21,287 bases of DNA from Coriobacteriia bacterium. GTDB taxonomy: Bacteria; Actinomycetota; Coriobacteriia; Anaerosomatales; Anaerosomataceae. The translations under genes and the position numbers were made by a program. Each line of letters opens with the position of its first letter. The first letter of the stretch is position 1. The stretch covers positions 1 through 21,287 of the forward strand of contig JAFGUS010000032.1 of NCBI GenBank assembly GCA_016938395.1, read 5' to 3'. The notes below the pieces were generated by a model. The model ran no database searches. It worked only from the letters and a program-made list of their open reading frames with translations, and was not told the origin of the DNA. This document shows, piece after piece, positions 4,084 through 19,313 of the stretch.

Positions 4084-4113
4084 AGCCTGCCGCCTTTCTC
4101 GAGCCCAGAAACG

Positions 4114-4150
4114 AAAAACGCCCACCCGGACCCCTTGGTCCGTGTGAGCG
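4114..4150 (-). terminator. Intrinsic terminator (attenuator) in the leader of the HdrBC/glutamate-synthase operon
   Basis: On the minus strand a 14-position stem (arms 4137-4150 and 4119-4132, one mismatch and one G-U) closes a four-base loop, AAGG. It is followed at once by TTTTT (4114-4118). It lies about 30 bases before the ATG at 4083 and after the putative promoter, so it should stop transcription within the leader unless prevented. Its 5' arm overlaps hairpin B of the ANTAR-like element. Confidence 0.8.
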
Positions 4151-4192
4151 CCATTGCTCGTCTCTTCTGTTGCCGACTCGCCCTTGAGCCGG
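4146..4192 (-). promoter_or_regulatory. Candidate ANTAR-target two-hairpin antiterminator RNA
   Basis: Two hairpins can form on the minus strand. Hairpin A has arms CCGGCTC (4186-4192) and GAGTCGG (4173-4179), with six-base loop AAGGGC. Hairpin B has arms GAGC (4156-4159) and GCTC (4146-4149), with six-base loop AATGGC. The linker is 13 bases. Known ANTAR-regulator targets (NasR, EutV and AmiR systems) are paired hairpins with hexanucleotide loops carrying A at position 1 and G at position 4. Both loops here fit. Hairpin B shares bases with the terminator's 5' arm, as expected for an antiterminator. Caveat: stem B has only 4 base pairs. A PdtaR-type ANTAR regulator is encoded nearby at 6285-6854. 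Confidence 0.6.
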
Positions 4193-4199
4193 TGCGCGT

Positions 4200-4228
4200 A
4201 GTCTAGCAGGCTGCGTGCCGCATGTGAA
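4200..4228 (-). promoter_or_regulatory. Promoter of the HdrBC/glutamate-synthase operon
   Basis: On the minus strand, -35 TTCACA (4223-4228) is 17 bases from -10 TAGACT (4200-4205), with a TGn extension before the -10. The predicted transcript start is near 4193, directly before hairpin A. The leader RNA would therefore consist of the two hairpins, the terminator and the ribosome binding site. Confidence 0.55.
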
Positions 4229-4255
4229 GAGCAACGGTAACGTCGCAGAAACACA

Positions 4256-4286
4256 GACGGGGCCCCGATAGCGCCGGGGCCCCGTC
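4256..4286 (-). terminator. Intrinsic terminator after the propeller/CWB2 gene
   Basis: An 11-bp perfect inverted repeat, GACGGGGCCCC (4256-4266) and GGGGCCCCGTC (4276-4286), has a 9-base loop. On the minus strand it is followed by TGTGTTTCTG. It lies 12 bases past the stop at 4298, and separates this gene from the downstream operon's own promoter. Confidence 0.85.
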
Positions 4287-4297
4287 TCGCGAGCGTA

Positions 4298-6253
4298 CTA
4301 CCAGAGCGCCTCGATCGCGCAGCGCACGTCAGCAGTGAGGGCCGAACGGCCGCCGAACACCATGACTTTGGCGGGGTGCCCACTGGCCAGGTAGGTTCCA
4401 ACGCCGGCGTGCAGGGAGGTGGCCGGCGTGATCAGGAGCGGGCCGTTCCGGCGGGCGCAGAGCACGGCTCCCGCAAGCGCGTCCGGATAGGCCACGCCGG
4501 TCGCCACACCGGCAGAGACGCTTGGCGTGGGCCAGAACTCCTGTGCGATGGCAAGCGACGTCTCATAGCGTGTGCGGCCGGACAGGCGCTTCATCGCGCC
4601 GGTCACGTACGGGTCGATCGCCGTGACGACCGCGGCCCCTACCACGGTGGCATCACCGGCGATGTACGCGTTCACGAACGGCCCGCGGGAGCTCAGGTAG
4701 CTCCGCACGGATGCCGGCAGCTCGTTCGTGCGCGTGAGCAGCACCGGCATGCCAAGCATCGCCGCCGGGGCCGACGCGCTGAGGGCGTCGGGGAAGTTGC
4801 CACCGTAGGCGATGAAGAACCGATCGGCCCCGACCATCTCCTGCGCGACGAGCGCTGACGTCGCGTACCGGTCGATGCCGCCGAGCCGCTCGACGATGTA
4901 GCCACGCGACTGGAGGGCCGTCCCCACCGATGCGGGCACGGCAGCAGTCCCTCCCACGATGTAGACCGTGCCTCCGGCCGGCAGCACTCGCTCCAGTTCG
5001 GCGAGGGTCGCCGTCGACAGAGCGCTCGAACCAGCCAGCAGGATCGGGGCCTGCTCTTCGACCGCAAGGGGTCCTGCCACCATGGCATCGGCGTAGTTGG
5101 CGCCGGTACACACGACCACGGAGCCCGCCGAGTCCGGCGCCGCATACATGGCCTTGCTCACCGCGATGGCGGTGGCATAGCGGTCCGCGCCGTACAGTTC
5201 CTCGGCCGACGCCACCCACCAGCGCGCGACACCGTTCGGACCGGCCGTGTGCAGATAGCACCCGGCTGGATCCATCTCCATGTACCACACGCCCTGTTCC
5301 GGAACCTCGCCCGGGACGATCGGGGCGAAGTCAAGCAGGTTGTAGGCGGTCTGAATCACCCCGCCGCTGGCATCGCTTCCCGAGTAGGTGCCGAGGAACA
5401 CCCGCCCCATCGAATCGGTGGTGACCGCGCTGATGCGGCCGTCGAACGGCGTGTTCACGCTGATCCACGTGTCACCGCTGGTGTTGCTGTAGCGGAGATT
5501 GCCGTTGACGACTGCGTAGACGCGACCGGGATTCGCCCTGTCGACACGGACGTCGTTGACCGGGGAGTTGTCGTACTTGAGCATCCACGTCACGCCGTAG
5601 TCGTCGCTGTAGTAAAGACCGCCCCCCAGGCCGCCGGAGTCGTCGTTGGCAGCTACGAACACGCGGCCGTCGGAAGAAACGTCGATCGAGTTCACGGACC
5701 CCGGCCTGCTTTCGGCCGTCTTGATCTCCCGCGACGTCCAACTCGCGGCGTTGGTCGTCGTGAAGTCGAGCCACGCGCGCGGAACCGGCACCTGGTTCGA
5801 CGCGATGAAGATACGAGAGCTGCTGGCCGGATCGACGACGATGTCGATGATGTCGTGGCCAGGGAACACACCGAGCGAGGTCCATACCGTCCCCTCGTTC
5901 GTACCGCTCCAGAGTGTGCCGCCACCCGCGAGCAGCGCCGATCCTCGCATCGCAAGCGCAACGTCGCCCATCGTAGTGAGGGCGTTGTTGCTCCCGGTGA
6001 TCACCGCCCACGTAGCCCCGCGGTCAAGGCTCTTATAGACCGCTCCCGGCGGGTCGGTCAGGTACGCAGTTGATGCGTAGAGCCGCCTGGGCAGCGTAGG
6101 GTCGACCGCGAGTCCTGTGACCATGTTGTTCCAGCCGCTTGGATCAAGCCACTTCGGCGCCAATTCCCGAAAGGAGTTAGCGTGCGCAGCGCCCGGCGCC
6201 GCAAGCACAAGTGCGCAGCAGAGCGCCAGGGCCGTGAACCGCGATGTCTTCAT
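4298..6253 (-). CDS. Secreted beta-propeller protein with three C-terminal cell wall-binding repeats (CWB2)
   Basis: This 651-residue exported surface protein begins with a signal peptide: a hydrophobic stretch from about residue 8, probably cut after AAHA near residue 26. Residues of about 27-350 look like a BNR/sialidase- or VPS10-like beta-propeller, with repeated blades such as YKSLDRGATW, YYSDDYGVTW and YSNTSGDTW. Residues 351-456, 457-556 and 557-651 are three CWB2 repeats, each opening with a motif like YGADRYATA, GGIDRYATS or SGRTRYETS and containing a YxDA or FPDA segment. CWB2 triplets anchor proteins non-covalently to cell-wall polymers. The start is the ATG at 6253 behind AAGGGAG. 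It begins 31 bases after pdtaR, so it may be co-transcribed with pdtaS-pdtaR. The propeller's ligand is unknown. Confidence 0.88.
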   Translation of the reverse strand: MKTSRFTALALCCALVLAAPGAAHANSFRELAPKWLDPSGWNNMVTGLAVDPTLPRRLYASTAYLTDPPGAVYKSLDRGATWAVITGSNNALTTMGDVALAMRGSALLAGGGTLWSGTNEGTVWTSLGVFPGHDIIDIVVDPASSSRIFIASNQVPVPRAWLDFTTTNAASWTSREIKTAESRPGSVNSIDVSSDGRVFVAANDDSGGLGGGLYYSDDYGVTWMLKYDNSPVNDVRVDRANPGRVYAVVNGNLRYSNTSGDTWISVNTPFDGRISAVTTDSMGRVFLGTYSGSDASGGVIQTAYNLLDFAPIVPGEVPEQGVWYMEMDPAGCYLHTAGPNGVARWWVASAEELYGADRYATAIAVSKAMYAAPDSAGSVVVCTGANYADAMVAGPLAVEEQAPILLAGSSALSTATLAELERVLPAGGTVYIVGGTAAVPASVGTALQSRGYIVERLGGIDRYATSALVAQEMVGADRFFIAYGGNFPDALSASAPAAMLGMPVLLTRTNELPASVRSYLSSRGPFVNAYIAGDATVVGAAVVTAIDPYVTGAMKRLSGRTRYETSLAIAQEFWPTPSVSAGVATGVAYPDALAGAVLCARRNGPLLITPATSLHAGVGTYLASGHPAKVMVFGGRSALTADVRCAIEALW

Positions 6254-9078: not shown

Positions 9079-9165
9079 GCCCGGGTGGCGGAATTGGCAG
9101 ACGCGGAGGTCTCAAAAACCTCTGGCCGAAAGGTCGTGCGGGTTCGATTCCCGCCCCGGGCACCA
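9079..9165 (+). tRNA. tRNA-Leu (anticodon CAA)
   Basis: This 87-base class II tRNA has a long variable arm. The acceptor stem is GCCCGGG/CCCGGGC with discriminator A, and the 3' CCA is encoded. The anticodon stem GAGGT/ACCTC closes the loop CTCAAAA, giving anticodon CAA, which reads UUG. The T-arm is GCGGG-TTCGATT-CCCGC. The extra arm TGGCCGAAAGGTCG-type hairpin and the D-loop GGCAGAC fit bacterial tRNA-Leu. Confidence 0.97.
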
Positions 9166-18209: not shown

Positions 18210-19169
18210 CTAGATCGAGAAGTCCTTCTCGCCCATGAAGATCGCGAGCGCCTCCTCGGCAGACGCATCGGCGAGGGTGATGGCCGAGATCGCCTTGGTC
18301 AGACGGACCGCCTCGTCGAGCGAGCGCTGGTGGATGTTGCGCCCCGTGGCGTTGCCGATGGCGCCGCCCACGTGGATCTGCTCCCAGAGCTGCGTGAGGA
18401 ACGTGTGCGGGTCGACCGTGGAGCCACCGGCGCACACGAGCCCGGTGCGTCCCGCCGCGAGCGAGGCTTCCTTGAGCATCTCGGCGGAGCTCTTCTCGTC
18501 GGTCCCCTTGGGCGGATTCACCTTCACGAAGTCCGCGCCCAGGCTGACGGCGAGGCCCGCGGCACCGGCGATCAGGTGCGGGTCCTTCTCGTCGAGAATG
18601 GCGCGGCCGCGCGGGTAGATCCAGAGCACCACGAGCATGCCCACCGAGTGCGCATCGGCGATGAGCTGGCCGGCCTCCTGCAGCATGTTCGACTCGTACT
18701 CGCTGCCGGCGTAGATGGTGTAGCCGAGCCCGACGACCTTCACGCCGTTGTCGCGCAGGTCGAGCGCGGTCTGGATGTCGTAGAGCTGCGAGCTCATCGG
18801 ATCGTCTTGGTGCTTGGCGGGGTCTTTGGCTGACGTCTTCACGATGTGCGTCTTGGAGTTCATCTTCACGAGGTAGTTGATCTCGGGGTAATCGGCCGCG
18901 TAGTGCGCGATGAGTCCACGCTGGCCTGCAAGGACACCGCAGATGCCCTGGCTGCCGACACGGAACAGGTGCTCGGGATCGGCGTCCTCGATCGCGATCC
19001 CCTCGCCGTAGAAGTCGTCGTTCAGGTGCTCGATCTTCTGGTCGGCGGCGAACAGCATGAGCCGTCCGGTGCCGTGCGTGGCCGCCATGACGTTGTCGAT
19101 GTAGGTCTCGCGCGCGTCGGCGGGCACGTCAGCCGGTACGCGTACCTGGTCACGGGTGATGCTCAGCAT
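18210..19169 (-). CDS. fbaB: Class I fructose-bisphosphate aldolase, archaeal/DhnA type
   Basis: This 319-residue class I (Schiff-base) aldolase of the DhnA/FbaB family cleaves fructose 1,6-bisphosphate. Landmarks are Asp43 in FAADQKIEHL, KMNSKTHIV, the probable Schiff-base Lys216 in GADFVKVNPPKG, CAGGSTVDPHTFL, and the phosphate-binding GGAIGNATGRNIHQ. The ATG at 19169 is chosen because GAGGAGGAG lies just upstream; the longer frame back to 19241 has no ribosome binding site. It stands alone, with a hairpin terminator downstream. Together with the PPi-type phosphofructokinase gene nearby it supplies successive glycolytic steps. A related 2-amino-3,7-dideoxy-heptulosonate synthase role is less likely. 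Confidence 0.88.
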   Translation of the reverse strand: MLSITRDQVRVPADVPADARETYIDNVMAATHGTGRLMLFAADQKIEHLNDDFYGEGIAIEDADPEHLFRVGSQGICGVLAGQRGLIAHYAADYPEINYLVKMNSKTHIVKTSAKDPAKHQDDPMSSQLYDIQTALDLRDNGVKVVGLGYTIYAGSEYESNMLQEAGQLIADAHSVGMLVVLWIYPRGRAILDEKDPHLIAGAAGLAVSLGADFVKVNPPKGTDEKSSAEMLKEASLAAGRTGLVCAGGSTVDPHTFLTQLWEQIHVGGAIGNATGRNIHQRSLDEAVRLTKAISAITLADASAEEALAIFMGEKDFSI

Positions 19170-19313
19170 GGGCTCCTCCTCGTGGATCGGATGTGACTGG
19201 TCCCCCGGGGCGCGCATGAAATCAGCAGCTGCATGCGGCACGCGCGGCCCGACAGATAGGATATGCCACTCATCGCGCCGACGCTATCACCGTGAGGCCA
19301 CCCCGGCACTCGG

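Follow-up and report, generated by a model that had tools for sequence, protein, structure and literature searches.

A probable ANTAR-target attenuator ahead of an HdrBC and glutamate synthase operon in Coriobacteriia

The gene nitR encodes an ANTAR protein of a glnA-gltAB cluster. In clostridia it is known as an antiterminator of ammonia assimilation (PMC4676874), and ANTAR targets at the glutamate synthase genes of Desulfotomaculum reducens were reported in 2012 (PMC3369931). The mechanism is described for EutV, which acts by antitermination on dual hairpins whose six-base loops have A as their first and G as their fourth base (A1/G4; PMC3369931, PMC8934654), the loops being bound successively (PMC8934654). 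Here we describe an element of this type in a stretch of 21,287 nucleotides (nt) from a Coriobacteriia bacterium of the Anaerosomataceae (GCA_016938395.1, contig JAFGUS010000032.1, positions 1-21,287), which is referred to as the window. The element is a leader on the minus strand (4228-4083) in which a promoter is followed by two hairpins with A1/G4 hexaloops and by a strong terminator, and it stands ahead of an operon that encodes a fused HdrB/HdrC-like protein (HdrBC) and a split glutamate synthase. We consider it very likely that this leader is an ANTAR-target attenuator of the operon. As glutamate synthase ANTAR targets had already been reported (PMC3369931), it adds a well-supported new case to a kind of gene control that is already known.

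The leader resembles the eutP and related leaders of Enterococcus faecalis under EutV and the Klebsiella nasF leader under NasR in its two A1/G4 hexaloops, the second of which overlaps a terminator, and in a regulator that combines a receiver with an ANTAR domain (PMC3369931, PMC8934654). It differs from them in the controlled genes, in its clade, in a 13-nt linker where theirs measure 5-12 nt, in a PdtaS-type kinase and in having one strong target per genome. With the Desulfotomaculum reducens targets it shares ANTAR-type control of glutamate synthase, whereas neither these nor the nitR systems are from Coriobacteriia, and the accounts of them, as far as they are drawn on here, do not mention an HdrBC gene (PMC3369931, PMC4676874). 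The view in the initial annotation that no ANTAR target was known before an HdrBC and split glutamate synthase operon is to be corrected as regards glutamate synthase. Actinobacterial ANTAR RNAs have dual hexaloops and PdtaR-type proteins as well, and few of them precede a terminator (Mehta and Ramesh 2021, PMC8164766); the main text of that study does not contain "Coriobacter", "glutamate" or "heterodisulfide". No account of this leader was found in the literature searched, which was mostly free of subscription papers and without supplements. The sole paper there to pair "ANTAR" and "heterodisulfide reductase" as whole words concerns an ethanolamine cluster (PMC6436200).

Anatomy and conservation of the leader

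The arrangement proposed for the window in the initial annotation was confirmed (Table 1). The promoter and both loops, AAGGGC in hairpin A and AATGGC in hairpin B, each with A1 and G4, are read directly in the sequence, and the predicted transcription start, about 7 nt past the -10 element, falls at the foot of hairpin A. The 5' arm of the terminator uses hairpin B bases: the last three bases of loop B (bases 4-6) and the 3' strand of its stem (4152-4146) are common to both structures, and therefore hairpin B and the terminator are mutually exclusive. In the minimum-energy fold of 4200-4100 (-48.3 kcal/mol, z -4.57) hairpin A and the terminator are present and hairpin B is not. Hairpin B ends 62 nt before the ATG start codon of the HdrBC gene (4083-4081). 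When 4205-4084 was shuffled 5000 times with dinucleotide frequencies kept, two A1/G4 hexaloops on stems of 4 base pairs (bp) or more arose in 19 shuffles and such a pair overlapping a terminator in one, and the same detector run over both strands of the entire window marked this leader as the sole place. Rfam release 15, searched with the leader at the gathering score and also at E up to 10, gave no family of this kind above cutoff. The narK family was considered and rejected, its score of 20 bits being far under the cutoff of 43.2.

A single contig scan provided 60 related loci, of which 58 include the start of the HdrBC gene; the sequences of L051 and L054 begin within the gene, and these two loci were set aside. 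A leader script, requiring G4 in both loops, a stem B of G[AG]GC with GCTC and at least four pairs in stem A, recognized the double hairpin in 46 of the 58. Together with the window this gives 47 leaders, and covariation was computed on the 46 distinct rows among them. The twelve relatives passed over by the script are L033 and L047, which have readable leaders, L016, which has 72 nt upstream only and was not judged, and nine where no leader was seen: L045, L046, L050, L052 and L053, which are other actinobacteria by title or show lower identity, and the Deltaproteobacteria L056, L057, L059 and L060. L047 carries a short-linker form that scores 24.9 bits with our narrow leader model (R1).

An alignment of orthologous leaders, proposed earlier as a check for compensatory changes, shows them in stem A and in the base of the terminator, where both sides have changed in six of seven and four of eight pairs, respectively. 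For hairpins A and B together, both sides have changed in 48 cells, where shuffles give 14.0, and for hairpin A with the terminator in 72, where shuffles give 19.6; neither value was reached in 500 shuffles. If the partner columns are slid by 1-3 positions, paired cells fall from 92-96% to 23-48%. Four rows have A in place of C as base 6 of loop B, and in these the terminator partner of that base is U. The terminator, which was no search criterion, folds at -33.2 to -22.7 kcal/mol in all 47 leaders. TG precedes the -10 element in 45 of 47, a count to be read with the script scoring that favoured TG. A1 is present in 39 of 47 leaders for loop A and 45 of 47 for loop B.

The 4-bp stem of hairpin B had been named as the weak point of the structure. 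Its four inner pairs are GAGC/GCUC in 47 of 47 rows except for one G-U cell, and a fifth pair outside them forms in 28 of the 46 distinct rows; the letters of the stem were partly selected by the script. Nevertheless, L033 and L047, the two class members with readable leaders that the script missed, likewise show GAGC/GCUC. As the GAGC arm lies outside the terminator, its conservation is most simply explained by base pairing within hairpin B.

The regulator pair and the search for further targets

Genes for a PdtaS-like sensor kinase and a PdtaR-like ANTAR protein lie upstream of the leader in the window (Table 1); the kinase is presumed to be the input of the switch and the PdtaR-like protein its RNA-binding partner. 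The regulator finds its best solved relative in 1s8n (Rv1626; 218 bits), and its receiver retains the acidic pair, Asp, Thr and Lys typical of receivers, as judged by eye and in the alignment. Kinase and regulator have the domain make-up of mycobacterial PdtaS/PdtaR, whose reported targets and signals, in the sources drawn on here, are by contrast related to redox, lipid, copper, nitric oxide (NO) or iron. The PdtaS-type GAF region of the kinase (residues 32-161) contains by eye one cysteine, and thus the dicysteine copper and NO sensor of Mycobacterium tuberculosis PdtaS is not evident.

The linkage of regulator and leader was followed in 47 genomes, those of the 46 leader relatives and of L047. 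One ANTAR protein was found in each of 46 genomes and none in the last (G028). Leader and ANTAR domain share a contig in 36 genomes, and in all 36 the domain lies 34 to 13,928 nt upstream of the leader and on its strand (500 nt or less in 18, 8 kb or less in 35); in ten genomes they are on separate contigs. Unlike the window, where a CWB2 gene intervenes, 15 of the 36 have the ANTAR domain ending 150 nt or less from the leader. Over 396 genomes of the class, with strict filters and a strong leader defined as at least 36 bits with R1, we counted a strong leader in 60, the HdrBC gene in 63 and an above-cutoff ANTAR domain in 83. All 60 strong-leader genomes contain the HdrBC gene, with the leader directly 5' of it when positions are compared by eye, and 59 of them contain an ANTAR domain. 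The three HdrBC genomes with no strong leader are G115 and G142, cut by a contig end, and G087, the genome of L033.

In the 47 genomes R1 gave one strong match in 46 and 24.9 bits in the last, and no other match exceeded 27.2 bits. A general detector, defined as a double hexaloop with an overlapping terminator, recovers 38 of the 47 leaders and so could miss a target; it is blind to terminator-less ones. Applied to 1.06 Mb strand-bases of loci it returned these 38 leaders and one other place, and on a 1.84-Mb scaffold of one relative it returned this leader only, terminator-less targets being invisible to it. It gave no match in the ANTAR neighbourhoods of 18 of the 21 ANTAR-bearing genomes that lack HdrBC. 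A larger regulon drawn from R1 matches below 32 bits was rejected, since none of the 16 places inspected has an overlapping terminator by eye; a tblastn search found no HdrBC, glutamate synthase, kinase or ANTAR proteins near them. The ANTAR protein and the leader seem to be dedicated to each other, each genome having a single such protein and a single strong target, as a rule at a short distance.

Two observations were made beside this search. A perfect single A1/G4 hexaloop hairpin directly before a gene is found in L139 (3021-3085; a weak match of 27.2 bits with R1); the start of that gene resembles the window protein at 18210-19241, ahead of which a hairpin of this kind was not seen. In five loci from class genomes that lack HdrBC (L237, L238, L241, L245 and L246) the ANTAR gene is near a glutamine synthetase gene, and three of them also have a glutamate synthase-like match in the stretch examined. 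Neither R1 nor the general detector marked a leader in these five stretches.

Control of the operon: probable ANTAR switch, GlnR-like box and alternatives

By analogy with known ANTAR systems, from which binding, phosphorylation and readthrough are taken over, the leader could work as follows. In the absence of active regulator the polymerase would start just before hairpin A, the terminator would take up the 3' half of hairpin B, and transcription would halt ahead of the genes. The neighbouring PdtaS-like kinase would phosphorylate the PdtaR-like protein, which in this form would bind first loop A and then loop B, and the bound protein would hold hairpin B closed so that the polymerase reads through. 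As an interpretation, the ANTAR-type antitermination leader put forward in the initial annotation is supported by the relatives, by the covariation of stem A and the terminator and by the linkage to the ANTAR gene.

Several points weigh against it. G4 and the letters of stem B were required by the script, so that their conservation is partly selection, and the number of pairs in hairpins A and B with both sides changed is matched in 38 of 500 shuffles. In 8 of 47 leaders the first base of loop A is G, and in 2 of 47 that of loop B. L033 (about 5739-5797) keeps hairpin B and the terminator with no recognizable hairpin A. The HdrBC gene is absent from 21 of the 83 ANTAR-bearing class genomes, and since genomes of one class are related, the co-occurrence counts are non-independent. 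Linkers in Enterococcus eut leaders do not exceed 12 nt in the source, and 14 nt sharply reduces induction (PMC3369931), while 2-25 nt is accepted for actinobacterial ANTAR RNAs, a range that 13 nt fits (PMC8164766). The mycobacterial PdtaR family is also reported there to act on translation (PMC8164766). The L033 leader may be an ANTAR-independent or single-loop form; in this relative TGCTATAAT is seen close upstream of hairpin B.

A further element, outside the initial annotation and new here, is a predicted GlnR-like two-site box upstream of the promoter (Table 1). Known GlnR boxes follow the consensus gTnAc-n6-GaAAc (PMC10704036), and the window reads GTAAC-n6-GAAAC, likewise with 6 nt between two half-sites of 5 nt. 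Within 85 nt 5' of -10, half-sites exactly 6 nt apart occur in 30 of 47 leaders (28 of them GTTTC-n6-GTTTC), where 200 shuffles give 0.13 on average and never more than 2, and spacings of 3-5 and 7-11 nt occur in 0 or 1 leaders. The box starts either 35-36 or 46-49 nt before -10, two positions one helical turn apart. Over ten genomes, chosen for leaders with the exact box, GTTTC-n6-GTTTC was found 35 times and the reversed control 8 times, and of 30 such loci 10 are HdrBC leaders, 9 directly precede glnA, 4 are beside ammonium transporter genes and 7 match no query protein. The form GTnAC-n6-GAAAC is weak evidence alone, since 18 genomes gave 109 matches to it and 63 to the reversed control; among 30 of its loci three are at a second glnA and two at ammonium transporter genes. 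The 1.84-Mb scaffold holds five boxes, two of them at glutamine synthetase genes (307260; 69260, which is L201) and three with no gene assignment because long antisense frames mask the genes. Location at glnA and ammonium transporter genes is a further likeness to the GlnR boxes of actinomycetes, from which ours differ in that most leaders have both half-sites of GAAAC type and that the likely regulator only borders on the GlnR Pfam family.

This candidate regulator follows glnA in G001 and G032 and has an OmpR-type DNA-binding domain with no Pfam receiver match, scoring 19.3 and 26.6 bits, respectively, with GlnR_1st (cutoff 27). Relatives of it are present in 42 of the 47 genomes; 26 are on the leader contig, all downstream on the same strand and 22 within 11 kb. 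Its best solved relatives are 8hig and 8hih, which we take to be GlnR structures; a literature search for 8HIH returned nothing. Initiation at the operon promoter is probably set in addition by such a GlnR-like regulator at the predicted box.

The box raises the question of whether initiation accounts for everything. Under a constitutive terminator with incidental hairpins, a GlnR-like regulator would control the operon solely at initiation, and the specificity of the two-site box and its sharing with glnA and ammonium transporter genes would suit this. Yet the exact box is missing in 17 of 47 leaders (L038 has 17 nt upstream only) that keep the attenuator, and initiation alone would explain neither the covariation of hairpin A nor the conservation of GAGC, a sequence dispensable for the terminator; we regard this explanation as very improbable. 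Even less credible is ribosome-coupled attenuation, in which translation of a leader peptide would choose between hairpin B and the terminator. The window does have an ATG within loop B, and its terminator would serve as a normal attenuator, but this ATG needs T at loop position 3, where 14 of 47 leaders have C and 5 have A, and the predicted start at hairpin A leaves almost no room for a peptide upstream. The two hexaloops and the linked ANTAR gene would also go unexplained.

More serious, though still unlikely, is an ANTAR target of the other sign, where a default-active regulator is switched off by a signal, or where the effect is on translation or stability, or lies in titration of the protein. 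PdtaS of Mycobacterium tuberculosis is described as constitutively active and ligand-inhibited, by copper and NO, and ANTAR-titrating RNAs are known (PMC8131098); many actinobacterial ANTAR targets overlap the ribosome-binding site (PMC8164766). Set against this, the distance from hairpin B to the start codon in the window leaves the ribosome-binding site uncovered, the conserved terminator uses bases of hairpin B, and the two copper and NO cysteines are not evident in the window kinase.

With the ANTAR-target attenuator as the preferred reading, one may go a step further, tentatively and with rather more doubt than confidence: in this clade PdtaS/PdtaR could be a one-target glutamate synthase switch laid over a GlnR-like DNA switch, so that initiation would answer nitrogen status and readthrough a second signal, perhaps redox, suited to an HdrBC-linked glutamate synthase, and this could be nearer to the ancestral job of the PdtaS/PdtaR family than its mycobacterial roles. 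The leader comes from a group of mostly uncultured actinobacteria and is an unusually clean example of its type. As regulator, conserved target and pathway stand side by side in many genomes, protein, RNA and output can be named and are testable in vitro. The known link between ANTAR proteins and nitrogen assimilation is extended to Coriobacteriia, and the promoter concerned probably carries a nitrogen switch at the DNA level as well.

The operon and its surroundings

Table 1. Features of the leader, its operon and the regulator genes in the window
Feature	Position	Strand	Basis or detail
Promoter	TTCACA 4228-4223, 17-nt spacer, TAGACT 4205-4200	-	sequence
Extended -10 (TGC-TAGACT)	4208-4200; TG at 4208-4207	-	sequence
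Hairpin A	4192-4173; hexaloop 4185-4180	-	CCGGCTC-AAGGGC-GAGTCGG, 7 bp, one G-U
Hairpin B, putative antiterminator	4159-4146; hexaloop 4155-4150	-	GAGC-AATGGC-GCTC, 4 bp
Intrinsic terminator	stem 4152-4117, T-run 4118-4114	-	sequence, fold, covariation
Predicted GlnR-like two-site box, GTTTC-n6-GTTAC (+ strand GTAAC-n6-GAAAC)	4252-4237	-	47 nt before -10
HdrB/HdrC-like fusion protein, first operon gene	4083-2758	-	Pfam CCG 106 bits
Class-II glutamine amidotransferase-like subunit, split glutamate synthase	2761-1523	-	Pfam PF00310 31.8 bits, PF13522 31.8 bits
FMN-domain glutamate synthase subunit, ferredoxin-like N-terminus	1521-10, window edge	-	Pfam PF01645 447.2 bits
PdtaS-like sensor histidine kinase (GAF_PdtaS, HisKA_2, HATPase_c)	8340-6859	-	Pfam PF12282 74.4 bits, PF07568 82.5 bits
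PdtaR-like response regulator, receiver and ANTAR domain	6875-6285	-	Pfam PF00072 98.1 bits, PF03861 73.8 bits
CWB2 cell-wall-binding repeat protein gene, between ANTAR gene and leader	6253-4298	-	

The HdrBC-like fusion also matches two NCBIfam families below their cutoffs, TIGR03288 with 265.6 bits (cutoff 345.15) and TIGR03290 with 55.2 bits (cutoff 160). The open frame of the FMN-domain subunit extends over 10-1677, and its start was set by comparison with the closest relative, L001. Downstream in L001 there is a GXGXG subunit, then a reversed gene, which by eye encodes an acetyltransferase, and then glnA. On the other side of the operon a long GC-rich hairpin at about 4255-4290, 3' of the CWB2 gene, ends beside the GlnR-like box. 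Farther away, a tRNA-Leu (CAA) gene is located on the plus strand of the window at 9079-9165.
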